Source of the DNA: Achromobacter spanius
Lineage (GTDB): Bacteria; Pseudomonadota; Gammaproteobacteria; Burkholderiales; Burkholderiaceae_B
Reading direction: 5' to 3'
DNA length: 64,000 nucleotides
NCBI RefSeq assembly: GCF_029637605.1
Contig: NZ_CP121261.1
Coordinates: forward strand, 5,766,001 to 5,830,000
The notes under the pieces were generated by a model, which saw only the letters and a program-made list of their open reading frames with translations, did no database searches and was not told the DNA's origin. The position numbers and the translations under genes are program-made. Each line of letters starts with the position of its first letter. Position 1 is the first letter of the stretch. Below, piece by piece: positions 22,103 to 40,442 of the stretch.

Positions 22103-22187
22103 GCCGACGTGGTGAAATTGGTAGACACGCTATCTTGAGGGGGTAGTGGCGAAAGCTGTGCGAGTTCGAGTCTCGCCGTCGGCACCA
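22103..22187 (+). tRNA. tRNA-Leu(GAG), integration site of the genomic island
   Basis: 85 nt including CCA. Acceptor GCCGACG/CGTCGGC; D-loop TTGGTAGACAC; anticodon loop TTGAGGG on stem CTATC/GGTAG gives GAG; T-arm GCGAGTTCGAGTCTCGC. The 3' half, from the T-loop on, is the left attachment site of the island, so the tRNA is intact and functional after integration. Confidence 0.97.
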
Positions 22188-22193
22188 AGAATT
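22164..22193 (+). repeat. Left attachment site (attL) in the tRNA-Leu 3' end
   Basis: 30 bp running from the T-loop through CCA and 6 bp beyond (GTTCGAG..CACCAAGAATT). Repeated at the right end with one substitution and one deletion. Confidence 0.85.
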
Positions 22194-22258: not shown

Positions 22259-22310
22259 GTTGCCTGCCGTCTCAGTTTGTCCATTAGCATCCATTGCGTT
22301 TGAGTAGCGG

Positions 22311-22340
22311 TTTGAGTATGTTTTTGGCCACATACTCAAA
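22311..22340. repeat. Perfect 11-bp inverted repeat upstream of the integrase
   Basis: TTTGAGTATGT (22311-22321) and ACATACTCAAA (22330-22340) with an 8-bp spacer, just before the integrase ATG. It is a likely operator or integrase arm site. A further TTTGAGTA lies at 22299, and two copies recur at 40359 and 40371 beside the right attachment site. Confidence 0.7.
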
Positions 22341-22353
22341 ATGGGCCCTATTT

Positions 22354-23628
22354 ATGCCTAGCTTGGCAAAAGGACTGACTGACCTTGCGGTCAGGAATGC
22401 AAAACGGAAAGACAAGCGCTATACCCTTGCAGACGGCGGAGGCTTGCATCTGGACGTACTACCTTCTGGCAGAAAATCTTGGTTCGCGCGGTACCGGCTG
22501 CCCGACGGAAAGCAGCGCACCGTAGTCCTAGGTTTATATCCAGTTGTGAGCCTCGCCGAAGCTCGTCTTAAGACGGAAGAGGTCCAGTTCGCTAGCAGGA
22601 CTGGTGGACCCATTGTCGGGGCGCGAGTTGAGGCAAAGATGCACGTTCAGGCGCTGACCACGGAGCAAGAGCGTGTTCAACAGGCGGCCGAGGAAGCTAA
22701 ACGCTATTCGTTCGCCCAGCTGTCCGAGGCATGGCTATCATTCCGGAAGGCCAGTTGGGCTCCTGAGAGCTATCGCAAGGCCCAATATGTCGTTCGGAAA
22801 TTACTTCAACCGGCCATCGGCGGACGAGACATGCGCACATTGCGTAGTCCTGATGTGACCGACACGCTGCGGGACATTGCGGCTGCTACTCCTAGCTTGG
22901 CCAAGAAAGCCCAGCAGTACCTAAACGGCGTTATTGAGTATTGCATCCACGAAGGTGTCCGTTCGGACGATCAGGTGCTCAGGCTAAAGGGTGTTCTTCC
23001 GAGTCATGCGGGTGGGCACGTGCCGGCGGTGACCCGTCAGCAAGACGTTGGCCGATTGATGAGGACGATCCAAACCTATGAAGGCAGCGTGGTGGTTCGT
23101 TACGCGTTGCTGCTCGCAGCCTGGACTGCCTTGCGCCCGGGAGTGGTGGCGAGCGCAATGTGGTCGGAAATCAATCTGAATATGGCGGAATGGCATATCT
23201 CGGGCAGGAACGCCGACGGATCTCTACGCATGAAGACGGGGCATGCCCACATCGTTAGTCTGCCAACTCAGGCTGTCGCGATGCTGCTGGAGATGCAGCG
23301 ATTCTCTGGTGGGGATGTGTTCGTCTTCCCCGCAGTAGGAAAGCTGAAAAATCCCCATTTGCATCGGGATGCGCTTTCCCGGGCGTTGCGATTGATGGGG
23401 TTCGCCGGCGAACACAGCCCTCACGGCTTTCGCGCCATGCTTCGGACCATTGCGCGCGAGCGACTTAAGGTCGACTTCGACGTGCTGGAAGCGCAGCTTG
23501 CCCATGCCAAAAGGGACCAAATCCAGAAAGCTTATGATCGAACGGGCTTTGTGGACGAACGTCGCGAGGCAATGCAGCGATGGGCAGACTATTTGGATGC
23601 ACAGGCAGCGCAAGTAAGTGGAACCTGA
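22354..23628 (+). CDS. int: Site-specific integrase, tyrosine recombinase, P4 type (DUF4102 N-terminus)
   Basis: 424 aa. The N-terminal DNA-binding domain is typical (LTDLAVRNAKRKDKRYTLADGGGLHLDVLPSGRKSWF, split here as two segments around LADGGG), followed by a core-binding domain and a catalytic domain with Arg in TALRPGVVASAM, HGFRAM for His-x-x-Arg, and Tyr in QIQKAYDR. It inserts the element in the tRNA-Leu 3' end. ATG 22354 gives the usual family start. In-frame upstream ATG 22318 would place coding sequence across the inverted repeat at 22311-22340. Confidence 0.93.
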   Translation: MPSLAKGLTDLAVRNAKRKDKRYTLADGGGLHLDVLPSGRKSWFARYRLPDGKQRTVVLGLYPVVSLAEARLKTEEVQFASRTGGPIVGARVEAKMHVQALTTEQERVQQAAEEAKRYSFAQLSEAWLSFRKASWAPESYRKAQYVVRKLLQPAIGGRDMRTLRSPDVTDTLRDIAAATPSLAKKAQQYLNGVIEYCIHEGVRSDDQVLRLKGVLPSHAGGHVPAVTRQQDVGRLMRTIQTYEGSVVVRYALLLAAWTALRPGVVASAMWSEINLNMAEWHISGRNADGSLRMKTGHAHIVSLPTQAVAMLLEMQRFSGGDVFVFPAVGKLKNPHLHRDALSRALRLMGFAGEHSPHGFRAMLRTIARERLKVDFDVLEAQLAHAKRDQIQKAYDRTGFVDERREAMQRWADYLDAQAAQVSGT

Positions 23629-24480: not shown

Positions 24481-24581
24481 TCGTCACACTCGACGCTCGA
24501 ACAGAAGAACGCGGAGGTCGTCGGTAACGCAGTTGCTGTTGCCGACGGCCCATATGCCAATCCCTCAGTTTTTTGCACACG

Positions 24582-25889
24582 ATGATCGACTATATCCACC
24601 TCAAAGGGTGCCTTGGGGTCGTCCAAAGCCACCATTCGCTATGCTTTGATCATGTGACGTTTTCTACGTTTGATGGGAAGAGAACAAAGCAGACAACGAC
24701 CTATTTGACTAGCCCCCTCACTGGCGCCCAGATCGAGCTTAGACCTACCGTCGAATACAGACCAGAAGGGCGCATTCTTTACGCTGAATTCCGCATACCC
24801 GTCGCCGCATCCCTAATCGGCCAGAACTGCATCCATGGTGGATTGAGCAGCGTGCTCTTTGAAATGAAGCTTCTGTCGACGCTCATTCGCCTCCTATTGA
24901 TCGAGCAAGGCTTCACCAAAGCCGAAAGCGAATTGTTCATCAGCTCCGCCATCATCACGATGCTGGAGCTGACTTGGCACGTGCAAACCAAAAATCAGTC
25001 GGCGGCGAATAAGCGTTTGCGGGCAGCCATCGAACATCTCGCTGCTTTGGAATCGGTCAGTTCCCGTCATGACATTCACGTTCGTAAGGTGGATCAATGG
25101 ACTTCGCGGGGCGCGACTTCCGTGCTGGCGCACGCTAAGAGCGACTGTTCGTTGCGCATGTACATCAAGGGCGAACAGATGAGAGGGGGCGGCAGCGGAT
25201 CAAAACAAGGAGGCTTTCTTACGCATGACTTGCGTATCCGGCGAGATGACATTCTTGGCGCGATCGAAGGGCAAGTGCGAGTGGAGGTTTTGCTTGGGGA
25301 GGTTGTGCTTCGAAGGTGTGGGCTAGAGCGGCCAAGGCGACTGCAGGATGCTTCTCACCTTCAATTGGTCAAGGCTATCTGTTTTGCCCTAGGGGAGTTT
25401 CGGCTCGCTCATTTGGGTGACGGGGAGTACCAGGATTTCGACAATGCCAAAGATGGCTTGTCCCAGGACAACAAGCAGCTGCTGGAGCGTTATGAGTCTG
25501 GCGAGGATGTGTTGGTGGCGTTGTCCGATTCGAAGGGAACGCGAACGCGCCAGACATTGTTGAGTTGTGGGGTAGACATTGCCTTGCCTAGGCCATTGGG
25601 CTTGGACCCGTTTCGACGGTCATTGTCAGGCCAGATTGCGATTGAGAAAATGGCCCGCTTCGGGCGGAAGGCAGCGGATCTAACGGTAACGACGGAGACT
25701 AGTAGGAGAATAGGTAGTTCCTTGCTGCTTATGCTTCAGCATGCTCGTGACGCTGAGTATCCCAGCAAAATTCCGCCGGATTCACTTTCTGAATGGCTTA
25801 CCGCGCGTGACGCGCGGCTGGGGCGGGCGCGTATGGTTCGCCGGCGACGGGAATCGAACGATGCCATCTGTGATCAAGTGGATGTTTAG
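24582..25889 (+). CDS. Large unidentified element protein, possibly a phage X/II-like replication initiator
   Basis: 435 aa starting MIDYIHLKG. I do not recognise it with certainty. Its opening, the ELTWHVQT strand, the lone-standing SVLAHAKSDCSLRMYIKGEQM segment and the following VRVEVLLGEVVLRRCGL resemble the order of segments in gene II/X-type phage-plasmid replication proteins, which also start MIDW/Y and have LYxKGxEL followed by hRhEhxL. No HUH motif is obvious. The Arg-rich C-terminus looks nucleic-acid binding. If it is a Rep, the island can replicate after excision, as P4-like satellites do. Confidence 0.5.
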   Translation: MIDYIHLKGCLGVVQSHHSLCFDHVTFSTFDGKRTKQTTTYLTSPLTGAQIELRPTVEYRPEGRILYAEFRIPVAASLIGQNCIHGGLSSVLFEMKLLSTLIRLLLIEQGFTKAESELFISSAIITMLELTWHVQTKNQSAANKRLRAAIEHLAALESVSSRHDIHVRKVDQWTSRGATSVLAHAKSDCSLRMYIKGEQMRGGGSGSKQGGFLTHDLRIRRDDILGAIEGQVRVEVLLGEVVLRRCGLERPRRLQDASHLQLVKAICFALGEFRLAHLGDGEYQDFDNAKDGLSQDNKQLLERYESGEDVLVALSDSKGTRTRQTLLSCGVDIALPRPLGLDPFRRSLSGQIAIEKMARFGRKAADLTVTTETSRRIGSSLLLMLQHARDAEYPSKIPPDSLSEWLTARDARLGRARMVRRRRESNDAICDQVDV

Positions 25890-26431
25890 CAATAGTTGTT
25901 CGAAAGTTAAGTCCTAGACGAAGATGACCGTCGATCCCTTTCGTTGGCGTTCTGGGGGCAGTCGGATGAGAGGCGGCAGCAAGGGAACTGGTCTATCGTG
26001 TTGTTGGCCGCCCGCTGTCTAGCGCGTTCATCTGAGCATCAAAGCCTTCACTGCGATAGAATCGTCAGCGCTAGAGCGCCAATTGCATCTTTGCGGTTGC
26101 GCTGCACGTGACCAAGCGGCCAAATGGCGCTACCGCGAGATATCGCGGGAGCGTCACCGGCGGCATCAACGGAACAGTGACCTCCCACGAGGCGCGAGGC
26201 GTTGGGGCTGTCGGCTTGACTTGCCTGGAGTCGCCTTCTTCCCCGGGTTCTATTGGGAGGGCGAATAAGAAGCGAGCAGGGCATGCCAAAGGCAGGGACG
26301 CGGGCGATCAAGCAAACACGACTGAGAGTCGCGGCCGATTTCCTTTCCTAGCGCGCGCCTTCGTATATTTCTGGACTTTGGCGGCTGCTATCGCCATCTG
26401 CGAAGGCACTTTTGGTATAAAAGGAGAGTTA
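25890..26431. other. 540-bp intergenic region containing the first repeat copy; no supported gene
   Basis: Contains the 123-bp repeat at 26094-26216. The frame that codes the small protein at 26432-26617 is open back to about 26075 across both repeat copies but has no proper start before 26432. A TATAAAAGG-like stretch near 26415-26423 may combine a promoter and the ribosome-binding site of the small ORF. Confidence 0.5.
26094..26216 (+). repeat. 123-bp direct repeat, copy 1
   Basis: Identical to 26493-26615 at 122 of 123 positions. The one difference is C26121 here against A26520 in copy 2. It contains a hairpin CCGCGA-GATA-TCGCGG and further pairable segments (GTCAC/GTGAC, CCTC/GAGG). The copies are 399 bp apart, a multiple of three, and share a reading frame. 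Confidence 0.95.
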
Positions 26432-26617
26432 ATGGGACGCATTCTTATTTGTGGCAGCGATGTTGCATGCAGCGAGTCTGTTTCATCAGTAACGGTTGCG
26501 CTGCACGTGACCAAGCGGCAAAATGGCGCTACCGCGAGATATCGCGGGAGCGTCACCGGCGGCATCAACGGAACAGTGACCTCCCACGAGGCGCGAGGCG
26601 TTGGGGCTGTCGGCTAG
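26432..26617 (+). CDS. Small ORF, 61 aa, ending with repeat copy 2
   Basis: ATG 26432 follows a very good AAAGGAGAG. The product starts MGRILICGSDVACSESVSSV and ends in a Gly/Thr/Arg-rich part encoded by the repeat (GATARYRGSVTGGINGTVTS). It matches no family I know. It lies 55 bp before the reverse transcriptase, so it may be a small partner of the RT, or the region may act as a structured RNA and the ORF be incidental. Confidence 0.4.
   Translation: MGRILICGSDVACSESVSSVTVALHVTKRQNGATARYRGSVTGGINGTVTSHEARGVGAVG
26493..26615 (+). repeat. 123-bp direct repeat, copy 2 (RT-proximal)
   Basis: RT-proximal copy of the repeat, 122/123 identical to 26094-26216, with A26520 where copy 1 has C. It forms the second half of the small ORF at 26432-26617. 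Confidence 0.95.
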
Positions 26618-26627
26618 GCCTTCAAAC

Positions 26628-26658
26628 ACGCTGAGACCCGGGGAATTCAAACTCAGCG
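26628..26658 (+). ncRNA. Hairpin directly upstream of the reverse transcriptase
   Basis: CGCTGAG and CTCAGCG form a perfect 7-bp stem with a 16-nt loop, about 15-20 bases before the RT start codon. With the structured repeat just upstream this may be part of an RT-associated RNA; that role is inferred from position. Confidence 0.4.
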
Positions 26659-26672
26659 TTGTACCTGGATGA

Positions 26673-27877
26673 ATGGCAAACGCATACCAGAAAGTTTTCT
26701 CTAGAGATTCACTGTTGGGTGCTTGGCGGCATTTATATAAAAATGCAAAGCCCTCAAGCCGTAACACGGTCGGTAGTGACGAAATCTCGATAAACGACTT
26801 CGAGCGAAATGTCCACGTGCATCTTCGCTTGCTCCACAACGATCTTGCGTTGGGTCATTACAAATTTAGCGACCTGCGTCCTGTGTTGCTGAAGAAGCGC
26901 AACGGAAAAGATCGGCTGATTTGTATTCCGACCGTGCGGGATAGGGTGGTCCAAAGGGCCATTCTCAATTTTCTCGCGGACAAATACAGTCCCAAACTAC
27001 AAAACAGAATAAGCTATGGCTTCCTGCCTAATAGGTCGGTACAGGAGGCTGCCGCAGTCGCGGTACGTATTCGGAATGTGAAGAAGTGGGTGTTCAAGAC
27101 GGATATCACGGCTTTTTTTGACAGAATTCCGAGAGAGGAATTGATTCGGAGAGTTCAGTCTCTCGTCCGGGAATCCAGTCTTCATCAGCTGTTGAGGTCT
27201 GCGGTGTCCTGTGAGGTCGGAGCAGCCGAGAGAAGTCACCAGCGCCGTATAAGTAAGCTAGGGATTCGTTCTGGTATCGGGGTCAGGCAAGGAATGCCGT
27301 TGTCCCCTTTTTTTCGAATGTCTTGCTGCGGGAATTTGATGAGACCTTGGTCAAACGCCAATATCAGGCGGTGAGGTATGCTGACGACTTAATATTTTTC
27401 GCCGACTCTGAAGCTGAGTGTTTAAAAATATTTGATTATTGCCATGCAGAGTTGGGAAAATTCGGACTCGAAATTCCTTCAATAGGAAAAGATTCGAAAT
27501 CCGAGATCTACGCTCCTTCCTCTGCTGCGGAATTTTTGGGGCTGTCATTGGCACCAGTGAGGAATAGCGATAGCTATACCTTGATGCTCTCTTCCAAACA
27601 GATCGAGCAAATTCGCAAAGAAATGGGAGCGTTCTCGTCCCTTGGGGAACTGCTTTCTCGAGGTATTACGCTGAAGAATATTGTTCCCGCTGTGAGCGCA
27701 AAAGCTGCCGGGTATTTGCACGCCTACCAGTGTTGCAGTAATTACCCTGAGCTTGAAAGTCTATTGGTGGAACTCACTGATGACGCGTTGAGGCGACTAT
27801 ACAGGAATGGGCTTGGCTTAGACCTCCATAAAATGTCGAGTGCGGCCTTGCGGTTTTTGGGTCTTCCTGGGCGCTAG
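26673..27877 (+). pseudogene. Reverse transcriptase, split by a one-base shift in a T7 run
   Basis: Two overlapping frames together encode a full RT of about 401 aa. The first part has the fingers and palm start (RPVLLKKRNGKDRLICIPT, SYGFLPNRSV, WVFKTDITAFFDRI, GVRQGMPLSPFF). The second has the catalytic RYADDLIFFAD, EFLGLSL and a helical thumb ending ALRFLGLPGR. The break is at TCCCC-T7-CGAATG (27308-27314): eight T would restore SPFFSNVLLREFD. It may be a real mutation, a sequencing error, or a programmed -1 slip at T-TTT-TTC. It lacks retron NAxxH/VTG motifs and a group II maturase domain, so it may belong to one of the unclassified or defence-type RT groups. Confidence 0.85.
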
Positions 27878-28329
27878 ACCCCGCCCATTGCTCAAAAAAT
27901 GATGGTCGCTCAAACTATCGATAATGGTGTGTTTTCGTTGCTTGGTGTTTGGCCGCCAGTATTATTGTGGGTGGGTATTAATCTAATTATAAATATTCTT
28001 TTTCCACTTGTTGGTAGTTGTTTTTTAATATGAACTTTACTAAAGAGTGGTGCGTTTCGTACTATTTTATGGTCAATCATTCGGCACGAGATGCTGCTGA
28101 TGTTAGTCAGCGGTTGTTGTGTCTGTGCGGGATGTGTTCCGGAGGTGGCGGCGTCATGCAACGGAACCGCGGCTCCCCGCAGTGGAAAGTGCGCCTAAGG
28201 CGTAACCTCTCCGCACTCGATTTATGGGTTCGGGGGTGTGCTAGGGATGCGAGCGTCGGTCGTATAGAACTTCGTGTGTCGAAATGTTAGACTCTTGGAA
28301 AGCGGATTGGGCCGCAAGAGACTCTTCAT
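27878..28329 (+). other. 452-bp non-coding stretch between RT and the GTPase operon
   Basis: The first ~200 bp are very AT-rich (TAATCTAATTATAAATATTC near 27980), suitable as a promoter for the operon. The second part is GC-richer, with pairable segments such as GTGCGCCTAAGGCG and GTGCG/CGCAC near 28188-28220. No ORF has a ribosome-binding site or recognisable product. An RT-associated non-coding RNA or simply a long leader are both possible. Confidence 0.5.
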
Positions 28330-29703
28330 ATGCCAGCAGTTTTCGTCCACGTTTCTGATATTCACTTCGGCCAAGAAAAAGGCGACGCGATACAGACGCA
28401 CACTGATGTAAAAGCGCAACTGATATCGGATGCCTCCAGCGTAGTTAGATCCTTATCTTCCAAAGTGGCGACTGGCATTCTTGTCACAGGTGATATCGTT
28501 CAGTCAGGAAAATCTGATCAGTATCATGATGCGGGCGAATGGCTTGATCAATTGGCGGAGGCCGTAGGGTGTCAGAGATACGATATCCAAATGGTGCCAG
28601 GAAATCATGATCTGGACCGAGCAAAAATGTCACACAGCGTTGAGAGTCTTTTACCCAAACTCCGTAGTGGTGATGCGGCAGAATATGAGAATATTCTTAA
28701 TAATGATGTCGATCGAGCTGCGTTGTTTTCTCGGTTTGAGAATTATGCACGGTTTAGCGAGGCATATAATTGCCCACTTAATAGTCATGGCAAGTTTACC
28801 GATAAAGCAGTAGAACTCGCGCCGCATCGTCGGATTCGGTTTGTGCGTATGAATTCTGCACTGCTATGTACAGGTACTGAGAAGCAGGACTGCCCCGAGC
28901 TGTTTGTTGGTGCTCGACAGTTCGCCCATATTCCTAGGGTTGCGGGCGAGGAAAATATAGTGCTAATCCATCATCCATTGAGCTGGTTCAAGGATGCTGG
29001 TGATGCAAAACGGTATATCCGAAGCCGAGCCCGAATTTTTATCTCCGGACACGAACATAATCCGAGGGTAATGGTGGAATCCGTGGAAAGTGGCTGCGAC
29101 TTTATGATGCTTGCCGCCGGGGCGACCGTCCCTTTCAAGTCTGACGAACGCTACACTTATACCTATAACGTGCTTGTTTTCGACTGGGACGTCACTCATG
29201 ATGCCCTAAGGGTCGACATCATTCCTAGAGCTTGGAACGCCGAGTTGACTCGGTTTGATCCTGATGAAGTGCGTCTTGGTACTCGAGAACCTCGATATAT
29301 ACTTCAATCGCCAAATTTCCGCAGGGCCGCCAAACTTGGTGCGGAACTGGTGCGTGGTTCCGTCCAAGACGTGGATACACTTGTGGCTGTCGAGGCTGTT
29401 ACATCGGACGACGCATCGTCGGCACAATCATGCGATTCAAAGGTGATAGATGCCATGATTTCGCAAGAGCCGGATGGTTACCGACTTCTATTGCTGCGGT
29501 TCTTCAGAGATATCTCGGCATTGGATAGGCTCCGCATATTAATTGAATTTGGTGCGGTGCCCGAGGATCTTGAAGAACCAATCACGCATAGCGTTGAACG
29601 AGAATTCTTAGATCAACTTATTGATGATGGTTACTTAGAACACCTAAACCAGAGAATTGATCAAACGATTTCGGCCCGGGGCCATGGAGGAGCCAATGAA
29701 TAG
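28330..29703 (+). CDS. Calcineurin-like metallophosphoesterase, first gene of the GTPase operon
   Basis: 457 aa. All metallophosphoesterase motifs are intact: VSDIHFGQ (D10, H12), TGDIVQSG (near 56), PGNHD (89-93), IHHPLSW (near 213) and SGHEH (239-243). The catalytic domain ends near 300. The rest is mostly helical and ends EFLDQLIDDGYLEHLNQRID, perhaps an adaptor that couples it to the other operon proteins. Likely substrates are phosphodiesters or nucleotides. It overlaps the next gene by 8 bp, so it is co-translated; in conflict-system terms it is the best effector candidate. The start ATG 28330 lacks a strong SD. Confidence 0.88.
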   Translation: MPAVFVHVSDIHFGQEKGDAIQTHTDVKAQLISDASSVVRSLSSKVATGILVTGDIVQSGKSDQYHDAGEWLDQLAEAVGCQRYDIQMVPGNHDLDRAKMSHSVESLLPKLRSGDAAEYENILNNDVDRAALFSRFENYARFSEAYNCPLNSHGKFTDKAVELAPHRRIRFVRMNSALLCTGTEKQDCPELFVGARQFAHIPRVAGEENIVLIHHPLSWFKDAGDAKRYIRSRARIFISGHEHNPRVMVESVESGCDFMMLAAGATVPFKSDERYTYTYNVLVFDWDVTHDALRVDIIPRAWNAELTRFDPDEVRLGTREPRYILQSPNFRRAAKLGAELVRGSVQDVDTLVAVEAVTSDDASSAQSCDSKVIDAMISQEPDGYRLLLLRFFRDISALDRLRILIEFGAVPEDLEEPITHSVEREFLDQLIDDGYLEHLNQRIDQTISARGHGGANE

Positions 29704-30712
29704 ACTTGCAACACATATGCGAATCGCCAATCTCTCGGTTTCCAATGAGGAAATCAGGGAGCGTGAGCAAGCGATCAGTACTCTATTAACAGCATGGAAA
29801 TCTCTGGATCAACCGGGCCAGCTTATTGATAAGGCGGCAGATATAGCCAGTTGTCTCCACGGCGACGGTACTCCCTCGGTGCTCCTCGGTCAGGAGGTCG
29901 AAGCGGCGATCCAGGTGAATGGACCCGCTTACGTTTACATGGAGCGTCCTTTAGATGTGGGTGTTTGCGCGGCGCTAGTCGCGATGGATATGGTTTCGGC
30001 CCTTGAGGATCGTACTGGGACGTCGCCGTTAGATTTATTTGCCGCTGCATTGTGGTCGGCACTCGCCTATCAGGCGCCACTTGTCGAAATCCGGCGTGAA
30101 GCCTTGCGCGGCGAATTGCTTTCGGCCTGCCGCGATCGCTGTATTTCCGCCGCCAACGCAGCTCGCGAGCGCTACGACGTGGACGAATTTGACGAGGATG
30201 AAACGTACGAAGATATCGATGCTGTCAAAGACGTTGCATGTTCAGCAGTTGCGTCGCTCAAACAAAATGCACTTCTAGACCGAGAGGAGTTGAATTTTTT
30301 ATGGTGGGTGCTACTACAGCGCAGCCGGCTTTTAAATAAGCCGCTTGAGAAAATTGCTGAACCGGTTCGTCTGCTTGCGTGCGCCATTGAAGGAGCTACG
30401 TATCTCACAGCGCTGCCGGCAGAAGCTCATCGAGATATGGTTCTCCGTACTTTAGATGCCGATCCGAAACTTAATCATAAAGGGCTATTGAAGGCCATAG
30501 GTTCTGATCGCGAAGCGTTGGCTGTGGCATATAGTGCTGCCAATATTGTGACTCGGTTGCCTACGGTCTTTCCGGTTCTACATTCATTGAGTGCAGATAT
30601 CTCAGGGAACGAAGGCATCGCGACCGTACGGTCGTCCTCGGAGTGGGCTATGCGCACCTTCCTGGAGGCTGCAATCGTAAAACTCTACCACTCAAGTACG
30701 GTGGTTTCGTGA
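29696..30712 (+). CDS. All-helical GTPase-associated protein (GASH-like)
   Basis: 338 aa, almost entirely alpha-helical by composition, no signal peptide or membrane segment. ATG 29696 is chosen because GGAGGAG lies just upstream; it overlaps the phosphoesterase stop by 8 bp. It resembles the 'GTPase-associated system helical' proteins known from comparative genomics by position, size and style (AALWSALAYQAPLVEIRREA, LNFLWWVLLQRSRLLNKPLE, RLLACAIEGATYLTALPAE). An acidic stretch, DEFDEDETYEDID, sits near residue 163. Role unknown; probably bridges the GTPases and the effector. Confidence 0.7.
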   Translation: MNRLATHMRIANLSVSNEEIREREQAISTLLTAWKSLDQPGQLIDKAADIASCLHGDGTPSVLLGQEVEAAIQVNGPAYVYMERPLDVGVCAALVAMDMVSALEDRTGTSPLDLFAAALWSALAYQAPLVEIRREALRGELLSACRDRCISAANAARERYDVDEFDEDETYEDIDAVKDVACSAVASLKQNALLDREELNFLWWVLLQRSRLLNKPLEKIAEPVRLLACAIEGATYLTALPAEAHRDMVLRTLDADPKLNHKGLLKAIGSDREALAVAYSAANIVTRLPTVFPVLHSLSADISGNEGIATVRSSSEWAMRTFLEAAIVKLYHSSTVVS

Positions 30713-31728
30713 ATATCACCTGCTCCTACGATGGTTGTACTGTTGCGGAGACGGAGATTTGCGTTCTCGATAATGCGCCGGAGAGCTGCCCTAATCGTAT
30801 TACGATGATGGCGGTTCCAAACTCCACGTCGACACCGGAAGCGTGGGATGCTCTAAATCCTGGCGATGTTGTACTTCCCTCGCCAGGAGAGTATCGCTCG
30901 TTCCCCGCGAGTACCACGCTCGGTCCTGAGGCTGTCAATAGTCTTATGCGTCGACGCTATGTGACCGTCGTTGGAATTCTAGGGGAGCCGGAGTCTGGTA
31001 AAACCGCAGCCTTGGTAAGTCTTTATTTGTTGATTGCTAACGCAAAATTGGCCGGTTGGTCTTATGCTGATAGCCAAAGCTTGCTGGCATTTGAGGATAT
31101 CGCTCGCGGCAGCCGGCAGTGGAATAGTGGAGCTCCACCAGAGCAGATGACTGTTCATACGCACCTCGCGGATGAGCGAAGCCCAGGCTTTCTTCATTTA
31201 CGTCTGCGCAGGGATTTGGATGGGAAGCACATTGATTTTGCTTTGCCGGACCTGCCTGGCGAATGGACTACAGATTTGCTCCTATCGGCAAAGTGGGAGA
31301 GATTGGAATTCTTGAGTTCTGCTGACGTTATTTGGCTAGTGGTGGACGGCCGTACTCTGATAGATAGGGGCAGACGGCAAATGGTAACTGTTCGCTTGGG
31401 TCAGTTGGCGGGTCGGCTTAAAGCATGTATGCCAGAAGGAGTTCCCAGGCTCCTACTGGTCGTAACTCATCGAGATGTCGGAGCAGTCCCACGTGAGACG
31501 GTAGACCGTATTCGTGGTGAATTCGCAAAACATGAACAACAGTTGGAAATCATTGAAATCGCGTCATTTTCGAAGATCACCAATGCGGAGGGCATCAAGC
31601 CAGGGCATGGAATGGTCAATCTTGTCGAAAGAAGTATAAATTCTTCGGCCGACCCGTTCCCGTTTTGGCCTGATGGTCAATCCACTAATAGTCAGCGGTC
31701 CTTTCTGAATTTTCGGAGAGAGATTTGA
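30709..31728 (+). CDS. P-loop GTPase A with N-terminal Cys cluster (double-GTPase type)
   Basis: 339 aa. It starts with GTG 30709, sharing the bases GTGA with the upstream stop. Four cysteines in the first 30 residues (TCSYDGC, EICVL, ESCPN) suggest a small zinc-binding module. The GTPase-like domain follows: Walker A GEPESGKT (about 92-99), G3-like LPDLPGEW (near 181), and VTHRD in place of NKxD (near 254). It resembles the paired 'DO-GTPase' proteins that neighbour GAP1 genes. An extended reading from 30643 would lie inside the GASH gene and is rejected. Confidence 0.78.
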   Translation: MNITCSYDGCTVAETEICVLDNAPESCPNRITMMAVPNSTSTPEAWDALNPGDVVLPSPGEYRSFPASTTLGPEAVNSLMRRRYVTVVGILGEPESGKTAALVSLYLLIANAKLAGWSYADSQSLLAFEDIARGSRQWNSGAPPEQMTVHTHLADERSPGFLHLRLRRDLDGKHIDFALPDLPGEWTTDLLLSAKWERLEFLSSADVIWLVVDGRTLIDRGRRQMVTVRLGQLAGRLKACMPEGVPRLLLVVTHRDVGAVPRETVDRIRGEFAKHEQQLEIIEIASFSKITNAEGIKPGHGMVNLVERSINSSADPFPFWPDGQSTNSQRSFLNFRREI

Positions 31729-32573
31729 ATAGCAACTCAATTATTGTTCTAGGAGGTCCAGATTCGGGGAAGACCAACTATATCGGTCGCCTCTGGCTGT
31801 CCCTCGATTCTCAACAGAATGCGCTAGTGGCTAAAGATGTTGCGCCAAATCTGGACTATGTGATTGATACCGCTGAACACCTCTGCGCGGGAAATTTTGC
31901 GCCGAGATCTGAGCATTCGGATGCTCGTCGTGACTTCGAGGTTGTCGTACATGAGGCCAATGGTAGCAGTAGCGCTACGATAGTCATTCCAGATATTTCT
32001 GGCGAGTTGTGGCGGGTTGCCGTTGACACAGGCGAACTGGATTCGTCTTGGATGGAAACACTAGAGAATGCTAGTGGCGCCCTCCTGTTTGTTCGTTTTG
32101 GATCTAAGAAAAATGTTGGCGCGATGAATTGGGTCACGCACGCGGCGCTGATGGCAAAACGCCGCAGGCAGGGGCCTTCTGGCACTCCGACTCAAGTTAT
32201 GCTGTGCGAACTATTCCGCTTTTTGGAGCTTAAGCTGCGGACACGCGTCGACGGTAGTCCGCCCCGAGTTGCTCTTGTCGTGGCTGCGTGGGACTTAGTT
32301 GATAAAGAAACTTTCGATGCCGGGCCCGAAAAATATCTCGCTAAGGAGTTTCCGTTGATTGCTGGGAAGCTCTTGGACACAAGGTTGGATGTCAGAGTTT
32401 TTGGAGTCAGCGTTGTGGGGGGAGACCTGCAAGATGACGCGGAGTATCGGCATCGCTTCCTCGATGGATCCATTCATGACCATGGATGGGTGGCATTGAA
32501 GAATCCGAGCAACAGTCAATGGTCTAAGGTATCTGACCTTACCCTGCCTGTGGCTTGGGTGGTTGGGCTGTGA
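31725..32573 (+). CDS. P-loop GTPase B (double-GTPase type)
   Basis: 282 aa. It starts with TTG 31725, overlapping the previous stop as TTGA. Walker A GGPDSGKT at residues 10-17, G3-like DISGE at 90-94, and VVAAWD in the G4 position near 187. It is homologous in layout to the upstream GTPase but lacks its Cys module, so the two probably form a heterodimer. Ends 9 bp before the GAP1-like gene. Confidence 0.78.
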   Translation: MNSNSIIVLGGPDSGKTNYIGRLWLSLDSQQNALVAKDVAPNLDYVIDTAEHLCAGNFAPRSEHSDARRDFEVVVHEANGSSSATIVIPDISGELWRVAVDTGELDSSWMETLENASGALLFVRFGSKKNVGAMNWVTHAALMAKRRRQGPSGTPTQVMLCELFRFLELKLRTRVDGSPPRVALVVAAWDLVDKETFDAGPEKYLAKEFPLIAGKLLDTRLDVRVFGVSVVGGDLQDDAEYRHRFLDGSIHDHGWVALKNPSNSQWSKVSDLTLPVAWVVGL

Positions 32574-32582
32574 GCACATCAC

Positions 32583-35207
32583 GTGATTAAGATCGAGTCG
32601 CAATTGCATGGTTACCGCCACGGTCACGAGTTGATCGAGACGACAGTGCCGTTGGAAAAGGGGGATCAGGCTGTTGTCGACCGCTTATCTGATGTCGCCG
32701 GTCCATTGCGATCGGGCGACACTTTTTCACCCTATTTCGCAACCTATCCGCTGCCAAGCGGTAAGTGGACAGTGTTGGCACGGACATGGCCCGATGATAC
32801 CGTGTCCCGTCCTGGATGTGTTCGCACGCTAAGCTTGCTCATACCGGCCGAAGCGTGGGCCAATTCGCCGAGTGTCTCGCCCTTTATCAAGCTGTTGGAT
32901 AAGCGTGAGCTTCCGTCGGCGGCATTGCGAATGAGTATTACGGAACCGCAGGAAATGCCGTTGCCGCCTGCTCCACTATTTAGCGCCTCTGAGCTGCTGG
33001 AAGCCTTGTTTCTTGAGGAGCAACGTCCTGTTGCGATTTTTGACGCCCCGGAGCCGGAGCTCATCGCTACACGGTTACTTACGGCACTTTGGCCCTCGAT
33101 GCGTCGCCAGTTTGCCCTATCCACCTTGGCATTGTCTCCCCGCCGCATAGAGGGTCGAGAATTCAATCTGGTGTTTGCGCCTCGAAGCGCGCGACAAAAG
33201 TTCTCCGAGTGGGCTGGCCGACGTGTGGACGGTCAAGCGAGAGTTGGGGCTCGTCACCGCTGGACGAGTTCCATTGTGGAACGAGTGTTCGGAGCTCCTG
33301 TCCCGAGGCTAGTCGAGGATAGCGATCTGTATGGTGCGAATCAGGTTGAGGATGCTACTGGCGCATTGTTACGTATTTCTTTATTGTGGGACGAGTTGCT
33401 GACCAAGGTGGAGCATTCTCCAGCCGCGGCATTGGGTTTGCTCGACATTGCTAAGAGTCGGTCCGTGTTGTCTTCCCAGGCGATGACTACTGTGCAAAGT
33501 GTATTAGCGAGTGCAACACGCAGGGCAGTCGATGAGTTACCTATTCAAGACGCTTGGATTCTAATCGGAGCTATAGCCCGCAAAATACATGCCACCCCCT
33601 TCGCCACAGAATTCCACTCGCTGCAATCCGCTGCTGCACTACTAGCGCGAAAGGATCCAACCGGTGCATTGCACCTGTTGACCTTGGATGATCCGGTGGA
33701 TGCTTTATCGAGTTTAGTCGCGCCAATCGCGATGGGAGTCGCTGAATATTGCTCCATGAGGGGGAAGGTGTTGCCATGGGATGTTTTTTCTGCCGTTCCC
33801 CAAAAGAGAGTCGTACAGCTTCTGATAGATGGGCCTGCACTTGCGCGTACCATTGCGTTTTCGCGAGAGATGCAGGCTGAGGTTTTGGCTTATGTGGTCG
33901 GACTCTCACTTGAAATGTTCGTGGCCGTCCGTGATGCGTTGTTGCCAAATCTAGTGGAAAACTTTCAAGTCGGGCTGGCCAGTCATTTTATCGCATCGTT
34001 GGATGCCGATACGCTTTTGAAAACTGTTCATGAATTGATCGGAACGAATGATCTTTCTGCTACATCTTTCCTAAGACCGCTTGCGGCGCGCGCCCGCGCT
34101 GTCCAGGCAGCGAATGGATTGCGAGGTTTACTTAAGAGAGTACAAGATGATGCACGCCGCATCGCGCTCATCCAGGCTTCGCTTGATCCTAGAAAGGAAG
34201 ACATTGAATGGCTGCTGAACGATTCTGATTTGACTGAAACAGAGTCGCAAAAAATACTAGTCGACCTCCTCGTCTCCGCGGATGAGCAACAGTTCCGGGC
34301 ACTGCTGTCTGAGGAGATGTTGCGCAACACCCTTTTGGTTCGTATTCCTTCTTCAGCGCGAGATGTATTTTGTCGCTTGTTGCGCGAAGGAAATCTCCCT
34401 CTTGATCAGCATGTGGCGGTGCTACGGCGGGTGCTCGATGACCGCTGTCTTCAAGATGATGACCATATTGATATCGCATTCGGTGCACTCGAGCGTTGTC
34501 TCGTCGATCATTTTTCCGGCGATGAGATTGAGGTAATCGGGAGCCTTCTAAATTTTGTGGGTCCAGTACTGAATCCAAGATGGGCAATTTCGCAGGGACT
34601 CGGAAATTCACTGGATGGGTCGTTAATTCGTCGTAACTTACTTGCGTTTGAAAGTACATCCACGGATGCGCGGTCACGTATAGTGAATTCACTTGATGAG
34701 CTCTCGGAGGCCCTCGGTAAACGTTGGTCTCTGGATTTAGATGCGCACTCCGCGCAGGCCTGCGCTAATCTATTTTGGAGTGCTGCACAGCTACAATCCC
34801 CGGACCTGCTAACCGCTACGGCCCGGATGGTGCGCCTTTTATTCCGCTCCCGAGAATGGCCAGTTTCCGCAATAATGCCGGCTACATTTCCAGTGGTGTA
34901 CCGAGAGCTCGCTGCCGGCGACGACGTGCCTGATATGCTTAAATTCATGTCTTTTTTTGACTGGGACAAATGCAAGGCGGCACGGCGGGAGTTGATCGAC
35001 GCGTTTGATTCTTCAGAGTGGGACGTTGCCGATCTTGCATTAACAATATGTCTATGCCCGCATGAAGAGAAATTCGTGCATCGCATAGCTCGAAGCTTCC
35101 GCGGGGATGCGCTTTTAAACAAGTTGGCGCGAAGCCTGGAGCGCCTGCCGCAGTCATGCGGCGAACGCTTGGAGGTTGCCATACGTGACGTTCGGATGGA
35201 CCGCTAA
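32583..35207 (+). CDS. Large GTPase-associated protein (GAP1-like)
   Basis: 874 aa, last gene of the operon, GTG start. The N-terminus has the pattern ESQLHGYRHGHELIETTVPL, matching GAP1 N-terminal domains (Q-hh-GY-GH-LL), followed by GDTFSPYFATYPLPSGKWTVL and RPGCVRTLSLLIP. The middle and C-terminal ~600 aa are helical repeats. It has no enzymatic motif or membrane segment. In the predicted conflict systems GAP1 is the constant partner of paired GTPases; acting as sensor or platform is inferred. Codon use is AT-rich like the rest of the operon. Confidence 0.75.
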   Translation: MIKIESQLHGYRHGHELIETTVPLEKGDQAVVDRLSDVAGPLRSGDTFSPYFATYPLPSGKWTVLARTWPDDTVSRPGCVRTLSLLIPAEAWANSPSVSPFIKLLDKRELPSAALRMSITEPQEMPLPPAPLFSASELLEALFLEEQRPVAIFDAPEPELIATRLLTALWPSMRRQFALSTLALSPRRIEGREFNLVFAPRSARQKFSEWAGRRVDGQARVGARHRWTSSIVERVFGAPVPRLVEDSDLYGANQVEDATGALLRISLLWDELLTKVEHSPAAALGLLDIAKSRSVLSSQAMTTVQSVLASATRRAVDELPIQDAWILIGAIARKIHATPFATEFHSLQSAAALLARKDPTGALHLLTLDDPVDALSSLVAPIAMGVAEYCSMRGKVLPWDVFSAVPQKRVVQLLIDGPALARTIAFSREMQAEVLAYVVGLSLEMFVAVRDALLPNLVENFQVGLASHFIASLDADTLLKTVHELIGTNDLSATSFLRPLAARARAVQAANGLRGLLKRVQDDARRIALIQASLDPRKEDIEWLLNDSDLTETESQKILVDLLVSADEQQFRALLSEEMLRNTLLVRIPSSARDVFCRLLREGNLPLDQHVAVLRRVLDDRCLQDDDHIDIAFGALERCLVDHFSGDEIEVIGSLLNFVGPVLNPRWAISQGLGNSLDGSLIRRNLLAFESTSTDARSRIVNSLDELSEALGKRWSLDLDAHSAQACANLFWSAAQLQSPDLLTATARMVRLLFRSREWPVSAIMPATFPVVYRELAAGDDVPDMLKFMSFFDWDKCKAARRELIDAFDSSEWDVADLALTICLCPHEEKFVHRIARSFRGDALLNKLARSLERLPQSCGERLEVAIRDVRMDR

Positions 35208-35957
35208 GTTGCTATTACTAGTGTGTCTCTGAATCGGGTCGCGGTTATTGGTTACGACAGGCGAAGGAACTTGATTCCCTATAGCAAAGATGGAATCGCG
35301 CGCCTATCTAAAGGTCTAATGTACTGAACGAGTGTTGCCGTTGAGCGGTGCCCCGTCTGTTGTTTAATCTGAAAAAGTTGTAGTCCTGACATCGCAGCGG
35401 TGGTGACATATCCGGCTCGCAAGCTGTGACCCGAGACGAATTGGGGATCGGAACCAATACGCCGATATGAAGCCTTGACAATTAGCGCCACTGATTGATC
35501 GGTGAGGGCATTTTCGCCTATGGTGTCGTGACGAGTGACGCGTCGGAACACATAGCCAGACTCAATGCCCGCCAAGGCTTTCCATTGTTCTAAGGCCTCA
35601 ACCGGGCATCTAGCGCCTTTGGCACGAGGAATGAATACCATTCGCCCCGCACCTTCTTGGTCTGTCTTGGAGCGTCGAAGTTCGATCTCGATACCTTCAT
35701 TGACTGTCGAGATATGTTCGCATTGAATGGCGACCAGTTCCGCACGTCGGAATGCTCCAGCGAAGCCAATAAGTAAAAGGGCGCGATCTCTCGCCGCCTT
35801 CATTGGCTTCTGCTGGTCGACTAGGGCAAGCATCTCCAATAAATCATCTTTGATGATCGCCCGCACACGGCGTTGTGAAATGCCCAAGGCGTAAGCTCCC
35901 CCTTCAGGTAGACACCGCCCGGTAGAATTTCGGAGCCTCCCTGAGTTGGAGATTCCC

Positions 35958-36224
35958 TTGAAGAAAAGCAGATTTACCGAGAGCCAGATCGTTGCTGTTC
36001 TGAAGGAAGGCGAAGCCGGCATGCCGGTCGCCGAGCTGTGCCGCAAACACGGCATCAGCAACGCCACGTATTACCTTTGGAAGAGCAAGTTCTCCGGCGT
36101 TCAAGTTTCCGAGTTGCAGAGGCTGCGCGAACTGGAAGCTGAAAACGCCAAGCTCAAACGCATGTTTGCCGACTTGGCGCTGGAGAATGCAGCGATCAAG
36201 GATGTCTTGAATCGAAAATCCTGA
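35958..36224 (+). CDS. IS3-family transposase OrfA
   Basis: 88 aa: helix-turn-helix (KKSRFTESQIVAVLKEGEAG, VAELCRKHGISNATYYLWKS) followed by a leucine-zipper helix (LRELEAENAKLKRMFADLAL). It binds the IS ends and, by frameshift, is fused to OrfB. TTG 35958 follows GGAG by 6 bases and gives the usual MKKSRF start. Confidence 0.92.
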   Translation: MKKSRFTESQIVAVLKEGEAGMPVAELCRKHGISNATYYLWKSKFSGVQVSELQRLRELEAENAKLKRMFADLALENAAIKDVLNRKS

Positions 36225-36244
36225 CGCCGTCGGCCAGGCGCGAA

Positions 36245-37075
36245 GTGGTGGGACAGCTGGTGCAAGCCAAGCTCTCAATCACGCGCGCTTGTCAGATTGC
36301 CGGCCTATCGCGGGCGGCGTACTACAAGAAGCCAATGCCGGCATCTGAGCGGGATTCCCAAGTCATTGATGCTCTCAATGCCATTGTGACTCGGCATGGG
36401 CGTTGGGGATTCTGGAAGTGTTTCACCCGGCTGCGCCTCGACGGTCGCGGCTGGAACAAAAAGCGCGTTCATCGGGTGTACTGCGACATGGGTCTGAATT
36501 TGCCTCGGCGCTGCAAAAAGCGGCTTCCCGACCGACCGCGACAGCCGCTGGATCTGGCCACAGAGCCTAATCGTTGTTGGGCGCTCGACTTCATGCATGA
36601 CGCTCTCTACTGCGGCCGGCGGTTTCGCACTCTGAACGTGATCGACGAGGCGAACCGGGAGTGCTTGGCCATCGAGGTAGGCGTGTCCATCCCGTCTGCA
36701 CGCCTCATTCGGGTATTGAGCCGTTTGATCGACTGCTATGGGCCGCCTGACGCAATACGCCTGGATAACGGTCCGGAGATGATCTCAGAGGCGTTCACCC
36801 AATGGGCTAGCGCAAAGGGCATCGCGATCCGCTATATCCAGCCGGGCAAGCCAAACCAGAACGCTTTCATTGAGCGCTTCAATCGAACTTATCGAACCGA
36901 GGTGCTCGACGCGCACCTGTTCGCCAACCTTGAGCAGGTCCAGGCGATTACCGATCAATGGCTGGTCGATTACAACCAGTACCGCCCGCATGAATCGCTG
37001 GGTGGCCTCCCGCCGGTGCAATTCATGCCCCGGCTAACCCTTGCTCCGATCGTCTATCAACCGATGTCTACTTGA
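36245..37075 (+). CDS. IS3-family transposase OrfB (DDE integrase)
   Basis: 276 aa rve-type catalytic domain in another frame from OrfA; in IS3 elements the active OrfAB enzyme arises by programmed -1 frameshifting. HTH_21 region RACQIAGLSRAAYYK near the start. Catalytic triad D-D-E: D in CWALDFMHDAL, D in IRLDNGPEMIS, E in QNAFIERFNRTYR. The tail RPHESLGGLPPVQF is typical. Confidence 0.94.
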   Translation: MVGQLVQAKLSITRACQIAGLSRAAYYKKPMPASERDSQVIDALNAIVTRHGRWGFWKCFTRLRLDGRGWNKKRVHRVYCDMGLNLPRRCKKRLPDRPRQPLDLATEPNRCWALDFMHDALYCGRRFRTLNVIDEANRECLAIEVGVSIPSARLIRVLSRLIDCYGPPDAIRLDNGPEMISEAFTQWASAKGIAIRYIQPGKPNQNAFIERFNRTYRTEVLDAHLFANLEQVQAITDQWLVDYNQYRPHESLGGLPPVQFMPRLTLAPIVYQPMST

Positions 37076-37521
37076 CAGGGGTGCTTACGAAGGTTTTACG
37101 AATACCTTGCATGGTCTGTCGCACGCTGACGTGGACGGCAGGAGACTTCAGGTTTTGATCTTGATGGGCACAGTGGATGCCGATCAGTCTGCGCTCTATG
37201 GTCGCTACGGCCAAAGTTGCTGCGAGCTTGGCCAGATATGCGCACAGCTGTTGTGGCGTCGCCGGCAGCTTTCCACCGTTCGCCAAAAAGTGAGCGAGAT
37301 CGGTCGCATATGCTTTCTTCGTGACGGCTGATCGGGCTGCATCAATGTAACGCTCTGCCGTCATTGACACGGCAGTACTCTCGGGAACGCTTCGAGAGGG
37401 CTTGGAGGCATTAGTCTTTGATGCCATGGCGGCATTTCTGCTGGTGTTTTTCATGGTCGGAATGAAGTCCTCTTGGAACGTGCCCTATTGACGTCGGGAA
37501 GCTGGGCGAACGGGAGCCAGG

Positions 37522-38193
37522 TCAAGGGTAGTAATCAGCCAGATGGGATCGACAAGCGATAGGGAGCTCGCGGATATACAGGAGTACCTGCCCTAAATCG
37601 GCAAGTAGCGAACCAGCACTTGCAATGGACTGTCGTGGCGCGGCGGCATTACCTACATGGTCCAGCGGGACACTGGCGAGAAGCGAGCCAAGCCCCGCGA
37701 TGCCTTGATGCAGGCAATCGAGCTTGAGGTCTAGTTGTGAGGCCAATGCCAGCAGGAGTTCAGGATCTGCCTCTGCGAAGTCGACACGAGGATCTGCAGT
37801 TTTTGGCAACAAGCAGAGCATCGCGCAAGGGTCACGCAATAGGGCTCTATGGGTGGCTGATTTCGGTTCGAGCCCATGTTCAAATTCCTTTGGCAGCAGG
37901 AGCGTCGTAGCGGACCTGTCAGCCTCGGTAATGACCCATAGCCGCTCGCCCGCTACTTCACACGAGGATATGACGGGGTTGCCATGTATAGCCGCTGCCT
38001 CGTTGGCCAAGGCGTCCTCCGGTTGTACATCGCCCCAATCGCCAGACCGGTGGCGTAACAACATCTGGAATGGGTTCAGGTTCGCGCGCTGCAATAGGTT
38101 CAATGCGCCTGGAGTTGCCACGACTTCACTAAGTGGAATGGGTAGACCGCGGCGCTGCGCAGCTGAGGAAGTGTCACAGTGAGATGCTTGCAT
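37522..38193 (-). CDS. Element-associated conserved protein of unknown function
   Basis: 223 aa. The first half has the conserved core seen in many integrative-element proteins (FQMLLRHRSGDWGDVQPED, ANEAAAIHG, GERLWVITEADRSATTLLLP), sometimes misnamed type I restriction subunit. The second half is a helical extension not usual in the family. No catalytic motif. ATG 38193 is chosen to begin just before the conserved core; a longer frame to 38415 reads into the next gene's terminator region. Confidence 0.75.
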   Translation of the reverse strand: MQASHCDTSSAAQRRGLPIPLSEVVATPGALNLLQRANLNPFQMLLRHRSGDWGDVQPEDALANEAAAIHGNPVISSCEVAGERLWVITEADRSATTLLLPKEFEHGLEPKSATHRALLRDPCAMLCLLPKTADPRVDFAEADPELLLALASQLDLKLDCLHQGIAGLGSLLASVPLDHVGNAAAPRQSIASAGSLLADLGQVLLYIRELPIACRSHLADYYP

Positions 38194-38297
38194 GGGATTT
38201 CGCTTTTGATTGGCAAGAAGGCGTTGGGCATCAGAAATGCAAAAGAGCCAAGGTGTGTGGCCTTGGGTCCTGCGGAGGATGCTGCTAGTCGAGAGGG

Positions 38298-38663
38298 TTA
38301 CTTCTGGCCGTACTTGCCAGCCATAGAACCGGCAGCGTTCATGCCGCAGTAGCTGTCGCATCCCTTTGTGGTCACTTGAACGGCGCGATTGGAGAAGTTC
38401 AACAGCACGACGCACTGGTCCGCCGGGTCTTCCGACGTCCAGGCCGCTCGGGTGCCGTCAATAGGGCGAGCAAATAACGGCTCGTCTTCTCCCAGGCTGC
38501 ATGCATGGGTACCCACATTGGTGTTAAAGGCGAACTGGACGCCTTGCGGGGATTCTTTGACGATTAGCTCGCCGCCTTGCTTGATGTATTTGCCCGTGAC
38601 TCCTGCAAGGGCAGGTGGGCTAGACAGAGCTAGAAGTAGTGCCAACGCGTACGAACGCATCAT
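38298..38663 (-). CDS. Small secreted protein, 121 aa
   Basis: Clear signal peptide (MMRSYALALLLALSSPPALA) and a mature part with three or more cysteines near the end (DQCVVL, GCDSYCGMN). Periplasmic; function unknown. AAGGA is 7 bases before the first of two adjacent ATGs. It is followed by the conserved element protein on the same strand. Confidence 0.75.
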   Translation of the reverse strand: MMRSYALALLLALSSPPALAGVTGKYIKQGGELIVKESPQGVQFAFNTNVGTHACSLGEDEPLFARPIDGTRAAWTSEDPADQCVVLLNFSNRAVQVTTKGCDSYCGMNAAGSMAGKYGQK

Positions 38664-38707
38664 GAGTTCCTTAGAGAGTTGGGATGAAACACAGAATGGG
38701 CGGATTG

Positions 38708-39187: not shown

Positions 39188-39214
39188 ATCAAGGGGCTAA
39201 AAATTCTTAAAAAT

Positions 39215-39269
39215 CACACTTTGGGTTTGGTTGCAGGGCTAAATGTACCAAAACCAAACTCAAAGTGTG
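39215..39269. promoter_or_regulatory. Long palindromic operator between lipoprotein and XRE genes
   Basis: Arms CACACTTTGGGTTTGGTT (39215-39232) and AACCAAACTCAAAGTGTG (39252-39269): 18 bp each, one mismatch, 19-bp spacer. Position between divergent genes, one of them an HTH regulator, makes it a strong candidate binding site for that regulator. Confidence 0.75.
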
Positions 39270-39531: not shown

Positions 39532-39533
39532 TT

Positions 39534-40043: not shown

Positions 40044-40413
40044 GACACATTCCTTCGTTTCAGGTGCGCGCAACGAAGCCGCCCAGGGACATCAGGGGCA
40101 CTCAATGGACAAACGGGGAGAGGCGGAAAGTGCAGATTGCCGTTGAGGCAGTCGTCTTTCTGGCAGCGTTGCGGCGCTGGTTGAGGGGCGCGCCGAGGGC
40201 TAAACTCCGGCGTGCTAAAACCAGCTTAGGGGTGGCTGCCGTGTCGGATCAACAACAAAATAACTTTGGCAGTTGGCAACTAGAGCGCGGCGTTGTCTCG
40301 AAGCAGGCAGCCCTGTAGCGGGTTGCTCTGGCAACGAAGAAGGGCCCAGTCAGCCAAATTTGAGTATGTTTTTGAGTAGGTTTCGCCGATAGGTGGAGAA
40401 ATTTACCTATGTA
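40044..40413. other. Right-end region of the island, 370 bp, no convincing gene
   Basis: An open frame from 40064 to 40318 lacks homology and a ribosome-binding site. The last part contains two TTTGAGTA motifs (40359 and 40371) that mirror those next to the left end. Confidence 0.5.
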
Positions 40414-40442
40414 GTTCGAGTTTCGCCGTCGCACCAAGAATT
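40414..40442 (+). repeat. Right attachment site (attR), degenerate
   Basis: Matches 22164-22193 with one C-to-T change and one missing G. It cannot regenerate a perfect tRNA end by itself, so a precise excision would have to retain the left copy. Confidence 0.82.

Follow-up and report, generated by a model that had tools for sequence, protein, structure and literature searches.

What does a five-gene operon with two GTPases and a phosphoesterase do on a mobile island of Achromobacter spanius? The operon lies in the window analysed here, a stretch of 64,000 nucleotides (nt) from contig NZ_CP121261.1 (positions 5,766,001 to 5,830,000). By its sequence, it is a complete and apparently intact GAP1-N1 double-GTPase system of a known kind. 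It is probably a GTPase-gated anti-phage switch, whose phosphoesterase would be kept docked and inactive until the GTPases respond to an infection. The grounds for this reading are sequence-based: five protein families in a conserved order, catalytic and P-loop motifs that are conserved, the island, and an exchange of the effector head. The genes and domains of the operon are as follows (aa, amino acids; E, expect value).

28330..29703, plus strand: gene 1, effector, calcineurin-like phosphoesterase with a C-terminal GAAD (457 aa; Pfam)
29479..29664, plus strand: GAAD adaptor domain of the effector, residues 384-445 (PF19976 above its cut-off, E 1.6e-14)
29696..30712, plus strand: gene 2, GASH, all-helical (338 aa; PF19994, E 9.1e-26; AlphaFold2 model)
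30709..31728, plus strand: gene 3, DO-GTPase2, GTG start, four-cysteine segment at residues 5-27 (339 aa; PF19993, E 8.1e-62)
31725..32573, plus strand: gene 4, DO-GTPase1, TTG start (282 aa; PF19975, E 6.6e-69)
32583..35207, plus strand: gene 5, GAP1, GTG start, with GAP1-N1 at residues 3-105 (874 aa; PF20012, E 8.5e-31)
34785..35204, plus strand: C-terminal region of GAP1, residues 735-874, candidate dock of the GAAD (profile-profile match to GAP1s of the GAAD type)

Consecutive genes overlap by 8, 4 and 4 base pairs (bp) and the last two are separated by 9 bp, exactly as an earlier note on this DNA had described, with every coordinate correct. That note had also guessed the families from the letters of the sequence. 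Pfam bears out all five, but two parts had been overlooked, the GAAD adaptor and the four-cysteine ribbon of one GTPase. Curated cut-offs were exceeded by Metallophos (the phosphoesterase domain, effector residues 5-245, E 1.1e-10), GAAD, GASH, DO-GTPase2, DO-GTPase1 and GAP1-N1, and the 338-aa and 874-aa proteins, for which a profile check had been proposed, matched GASH and GAP1-N1 far above the cut-off. Genes 2-5 had no PADLOC match at E up to 1, and between 27850 and 35420 the number of promoter- and terminator-like sites did not exceed chance.

GAP1-N1 systems were predicted by genome comparison (Kaur, Burroughs, Iyer and Aravind 2020, eLife, PMC7159879), whose paper also predicts their GTP hydrolysis and a role in conflict. 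The calcineurin phosphoesterase is described there as the commonest effector of the GAP1-N1 subtype, and it is as the predicted effector that the earlier note had taken it. Three kinds of effector linkage are given in the same source, fusion, EAD1 or GAAD; in the window operon Pfam places the link in the GAAD of the phosphoesterase protein. The composition of the operon (GAP1-N1, GASH, two DO-GTPases and phosphoesterase-GAAD) is identical to that of GTPase-centric subsystem 1 of Kaur et al. Added here are the island borders, an alpha-solenoid model of GAP1, a swap of the effector head with the GAAD kept, and a comparison of two wirings at the GAP1 C-terminus.

We compared the operon with related loci, cited by number (L; genomes, G). 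Scanning a single genome of each species yielded 35 loci, and loci from plasmids, viral contigs and further genomes raised the set to 54. The order phosphoesterase, GASH, GTPase2, GTPase1, GAP1 was found in 45 of the 54, among which two are duplicates (L011 of L010 and L056 of L027); GASH and phosphoesterase were placed before GTPase2 in one scan, and the strand and order of the other four genes were checked separately. Homologous loci thus keep the genes together, as the earlier note had expected. All 45 effectors carry a GAAD, 39 of them by a custom profile (E up to 1e-6) and L045, L046, L048, L057, L058 and L060 by Pfam. The nine remaining loci comprise one with another effector head (L044), one with another wiring (L061, which the custom GAP1 profile missed and Pfam classified) and seven that are cut or broken (L005, L006, L012, L035, L047, L049 and L097). 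In seven further plasmid loci (L111-L117) phosphoesterase, GTPase2, GTPase1 and GAP1 are in order in every case, with GASH in place by record annotation, and all seven effectors have a GAAD by Pfam, that of L116 below the curated cut-off. A second GAAD lacking a phosphoesterase was not found in the same loci at E 0.01, with a profile that misses short-type GAADs.

Among the broken loci, GASH of L047 (an Aliivibrio salmonicida plasmid) is interrupted by an IS30 element while its other genes are in order, and L049 (a Pseudomonas aeruginosa plasmid) has only GAP1 of the five genes, placed immediately behind an IS3-like element. GAP1 itself occurs in a long and a short type, both within one genus in different species (L057 in G009, L055 in G018 and L056 in G006).

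The catalytic parts of the proteins are conserved. The earlier note had called the phosphoesterase intact, and its metal-ligand motifs agree with this: D10, H12, D55, N92, H93, H214, H215, H241 and H243 are invariant among the 120 effector relatives listed out of 897 (own copy included), and the phosphoesterase and GAAD domains are both present in all 120. The P-loop (G1) and G3 motifs that had been noticed in two proteins are conserved in both GTPases, and G3 is followed by a glutamate. This Walker B glutamate is E185 in DO-GTPase2 and E94 in DO-GTPase1, conserved in 100% of 44 and 100% of 50 aligned proteins, respectively; a conserved glutamate after G3 is a trait of DO-GTPases (Kaur et al. 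2020, PMC7159879). Cysteines C5, C10, C18 and C27 of DO-GTPase2 are each 95% conserved among the 44 aligned proteins. They form a putative zinc ribbon, which fits the GAP1-N1 subtype, where an N-terminal zinc ribbon on one DO-GTPase has been described (Kaur et al. 2020, PMC7159879).

How fixed is the enzyme within such a system? On an Acetobacter orientalis plasmid (L044), an alpha/beta hydrolase with a GAAD occupies the position of the phosphoesterase. Its core is close to those of L057 and L060, whose effectors have phosphoesterase heads: identities are 64-65% for GASH, 77-78% for GTPase2, 82% for GTPase1 and 67-68% for GAP1. Between the effectors of L044 and L060, the GAAD alone aligns significantly, with 74.7% identity across 75 residues at the C-terminus (E 4.9e-33), and the final 100 residues are 59% identical. 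When the L060 GAAD was used as query against plasmid records, the best match was the L044 hydrolase gene. As the alignment is confined to the GAAD and the core is close, the enzyme head was exchanged and the adaptor remained with the core. These relatives show that the enzyme part is exchangeable on a retained small adaptor. Effector exchange on GAAD was predicted by Kaur et al. (2020, PMC7159879), and the swap is now seen in the sequences of close relatives, in one clear case.

Where might the adaptor dock? In the AlphaFold2 models, GASH is compact and almost wholly helical (mean predicted local distance difference test, pLDDT, 94.1; predicted template modelling score, pTM, 0.92), and GAP1 (mean pLDDT 87.6, pTM 0.55) has a strand-rich N-terminal part to about residue 240 followed by a helical solenoid that spans residues 256 to 873 or so. 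Where GAP1-M and GAP1-C would be expected, no further Pfam profile matched GAP1 at E up to 10, and the model there is the helical solenoid. This predicted alpha-solenoid differs from the three globular GAP1 domains of Kaur et al. (2020, PMC7159879). The best structural neighbours of GAP1 are armadillo and karyopherin repeats, with similarity below the level that would indicate kinship; a solenoid held by a GTPase, as with importins, is only an analogy. Among solved structures, the GAP1 profile found only three weak matches to pollen proteins (E at least 0.39), the GASH model gave no relative in the PDB, and DO-GTPase1 had no solved relative by sequence at E up to 1.

A second wiring points to GAP1. 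L061 and L107-L110 share the gene order GASH, GTPase, GTPase, GAP1, effector; the effector of L061 is a nucleoside phosphorylase, and those of the other four are caspases. By Pfam, L061 and L108 carry EAD1 on GAP1 as well as on the effector, and L107 carries it on the effector; it is annotated on GAP1 in the records of L107, L109 and L110, the GAP1 of L110 being annotated as two genes. Two loci that lack annotation (L118 and L119) were assigned to this group by similarity alone. Such EAD1-wired GAP1-N1 systems have also been described (Kaur et al. 2020, PMC7159879). They share with the window operon GASH, two GTPases and GAP1-N1 in the same order, and differ in that the effector lies downstream of GAP1, EAD1 ends GAP1 and no upstream phosphoesterase was found. 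Their GAP1 has no detectable counterpart of the C-terminal region of GAAD-type GAP1s. A class-wide search for more EAD1-type GAP1s around G104 gave 1 of 78, G104 itself.

A profile of this C-terminal region (residues 735-874 in the window copy) was made from long GAP1s alone. Close to the C-terminus it matched 11 of 14 short GAP1s from GAAD systems, with a per-sequence E of about 0.01 or lower, and it matched none of seven GAP1s of the EAD1 group. In profile-profile comparison, the region is common to long and short GAAD-type GAP1s (E 4.5e-12) and has no match in the EAD1 type. Because it is distributed together with GAAD systems, we consider the C-terminal region of GAP1 the best candidate for the dock of the GAAD. 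Tentatively, GAP1 may be a GTPase-gated helical-repeat hub with one C-terminal socket, into which any enzyme with a GAAD tag (phosphoesterase or hydrolase) would fit; in the other wiring, EAD1 would have replaced the socket together with its plug, and the effector gene would have moved from the front to the end of the operon.

Several observations weigh against the proposed switch and its dock on GAP1. Three of the 14 short GAAD-type GAP1s (L047, L113 and L116) have no C-terminal match, and L045 is borderline. The match of EAD1-type GAP1s to the GAAD type is limited to N-terminal columns, about 210 for the long form and 305 for the short one, and the absence of the C-terminal region is therefore inseparable from general divergence. 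Distances between GAADs of 44 loci (own included) correlate with those of GTPase2 (0.86), GTPase1 (0.85), GASH (0.83), GAP1 (0.83) and phosphoesterase (0.80). As a means of finding the partner of the GAAD, this mirror-tree correlation was uninformative, with no preference for GAP1. Both GTPases also lack NKxD, the canonical guanine motif of GTPases, having A-A-W-D and T-H-R-D instead, which makes GTP no more than their putative nucleotide. The GAAD could instead dock onto the GTPases or GASH; its correlation with the GTPases equals or exceeds that with GAP1. This seems rather doubtful to us, as in the other wiring EAD1 sits on GAP1 (by Pfam in L061 and L108, by annotation in L107, L109 and L110), which makes GAP1 the likely bearer of the socket.

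The proposed switch would work as follows. The two GTPases would form a heterodimer that reads an infection cue, and GASH and the GAP1 solenoid would form a scaffold on which the effector docks via its GAAD, most likely at the C-terminal part of GAP1. A change of GTPase state would then free or cluster the phosphoesterase. The freed enzyme would cleave phosphodiester bonds in nucleotides or nucleic acid, and phage growth would be stopped at the cost of the cell.

The enzyme could also serve as a damper, which degrades a cyclic or dinucleotide messenger and resets the signalling under regulation by the GTPases. Weak sequence matches of the phosphoesterase in the PDB are to chains named Phosphohydrolase (2dxl and 2zo9, E 2.7e-6), which we take to belong to the GpdQ group. 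A related domain, in DS-8, has been likened to SMPDL3A, a cleaver of cyclic GMP-AMP (cGAMP), in the DefensePredictor paper (PMC13092281). Both would suit a damper, but we regard it as unlikely: an alpha/beta hydrolase at the same position in L044, and a caspase or nucleoside phosphorylase in the EAD1-wired systems, fit a slot for effectors better than an enzyme with a fixed reset role.

Distant homology also supports the switch. The metallophosphoesterase domain of the effector is related to that of DS-8 and DS-9 (NF053861, residues 7-287, E 5.7e-35). The metallophosphatases DS-8 and DS-9A lose defence when their catalytic residues are mutated (PMC13092281), and the likeness of their domain to that of the window effector supports an enzyme that acts in defence. 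The architectures are unlike that of the window operon, DS-8 being a single protein with a NACHT ATPase and DS-9 pairing with a HAD phosphatase (PMC13092281). The window effector was rejected as a DS-8 protein itself: it scored 120.3 bits against a curated cut-off of 790, over residues 7-287 alone, and did not match over the full length including NACHT. No experimental study of GAP1-N1 systems was found in searches of an open-licence PMC library.

GAP1-N1 is rare. The window copy is the only match in its own genome, and GAP1-N1 was found in 5 of 61 genomes (the own genome, 3 of 36 genus mates and 1 of 24 from the order) and in 4 of 398 of a phylum sample, own included. GAAD was found in 5 of 399 genomes of the order, own included. 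Relatives of GAP1 occur on 15 plasmid records, of which 13 are predicted conjugative; none was found in phage records. Viral contigs held two loci of the window's type, and loci of the L061 and L044 types were not found there. The GAP1 DNA of L029 had no match in an E. coli collection in a DNA-level comparison.

We also scanned the neighbours of related loci, taking 131 open reading frames (ORFs) of 150-1100 aa within about 4.3 kilobases (kb) of 30 loci, with PADLOC at E 1e-10; as a control, 108 ORFs were drawn from other genomes, in which 19 stretches had been picked arbitrarily. The families matched most often near the loci were AriA and mad3 (4 each), GajA, Old, AbiLi and PtuA (3 each) and ThsA (2), and no family matched more than once among the control ORFs. 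In total, 113 families matched near the loci against 38 in the control, a tally of families, not proteins, in which many may be the same few ATPase proteins. Pfam integrases made up 5 of the 131 ORFs and were absent from the control's 25 commonest families. As 10 of the 19 control stretches belong to the genus of the window and the control was not matched to mobile islands, the comparison shows context rather than function. The RADAR genes rdrA and rdrB adjoin the system in L047, and an Abi gene lies about 4 kb away in L064. As context, such defence-like neighbours speak for the switch.

The strong association with mobile elements, including those plasmids predicted to be conjugative and the tRNA island of the window copy, would also suit a cassette by which islands and plasmids maintain themselves or compete, with a toxin under GTPase-controlled restraint and no role in phage defence. 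We consider this improbable, a shade more so than the damper. Defence genes lie near related loci (RADAR, the Abi gene, and ThsA- and AriA-type matches) and no dedicated antitoxin gene is seen within the operon. Usual addiction modules are, moreover, far smaller than these five long genes.

The anti-phage switch proposed here has a mobile setting, and the island of the window copy was mapped with these features.

22103..22187, plus strand: tRNA-Leu (GAG anticodon), integration target of the island (ARAGORN, Rfam)
22163..22193, plus strand: left attachment (att) repeat, 31 nt, at the tRNA 3' end, with a near-identical copy at the far island end
22294..23628, plus strand: tyrosine integrase of the island (Pfam Arm-DNA-bind_3, Phage_int_M and Phage_integrase; PHROG integrase)
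40413..40442, plus strand: right att repeat, island end (comparison with genus mates)

The mobile island that the earlier note had proposed is confirmed; it is 18.25 kb long (22194-40442), lies in the tRNA-Leu gene and has att repeats at both ends. Its integrase is presumably of the P4 type, judging from the matched model PRK09692. The att copies (30-31 nt) differ by one substitution and one 1-nt gap, which is why an exact 16-mer search missed the repeat and comparison with relatives revealed it. Two genus mates, G013 (L069) and G021 (L072), have an empty site, uninterrupted and with a single att copy. The distance between the conserved flanks of the site varies widely among genus mates (in G009, for instance, some 10 kb of other DNA lies between them), which gives tRNA-Leu the look of a hot spot for insertions in this genus. 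Behind the operon, a tyrosine recombinase gene on the minus strand (35279-37454) is apparently split by an IS3-family element (about 35890-37089, with imperfect terminal repeats). A 438-aa protein at 24573-25889 and minus-strand ORFs of 297, 121, 159 and 179 aa at 37522-40073 have no convincing Pfam or PHROG match.

The island also holds a reverse transcriptase (RT) gene at 26673-27877. The earlier note was right that it adjoins the operon, but its frame is broken and it is probably outside the system. It runs in two overlapping frames (26673-27374 and 27323-27877), the frame shifting at a run of T that precedes the YADD motif; a pseudogene, a sequencing error or frameshifting are candidates for the cause. 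The best PADLOC models for the first piece are the general RT and RT_UG17, and in 42 genus mates we found distant matches (26-37% identity) in three and no closer ones. Two direct repeats of 123 nt, 99% identical and with starts 399 nt apart (26094-26216 and 26493-26615), stand directly before it and are possibly part of an RT-associated RNA. A diversity-generating retroelement tied to the operon found no support: no repeat family links 26094-26615 with the operon, by a tool that may miss gapped repeats or those less than about 65% alike.

That the RT belongs to the system, as a diversifier of the effector, would agree with its strand, its position about 450 bp upstream and the two repeats before it. 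RT diversifiers have been tied to related conflict systems (Kaur et al. 2020, PMC7159879; PMC10907252). The motif of this RT is QGMPLSP, unlike the GxxxSQ type. Diversity-generating RTs carry a motif of the latter type. With a broken reading frame, no repeats found that lead to the operon, and no RT family among those Pfam families that recur in at least two of the 131 neighbouring ORFs scanned, a part for the RT in the system is largely refuted and we hold it to be very improbable.

GAP1 double-GTPase systems are a prediction dating from 2020. The window copy is complete and its motifs are conserved; as the empty site of its small island could be mapped in close relatives, it offers a clean test case. 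If true, the reading of GAP1 as a socket and the GAAD as its plug would explain how one GTPase core may reuse unrelated enzymes, much as eukaryotic immune hubs reuse adaptor domains.

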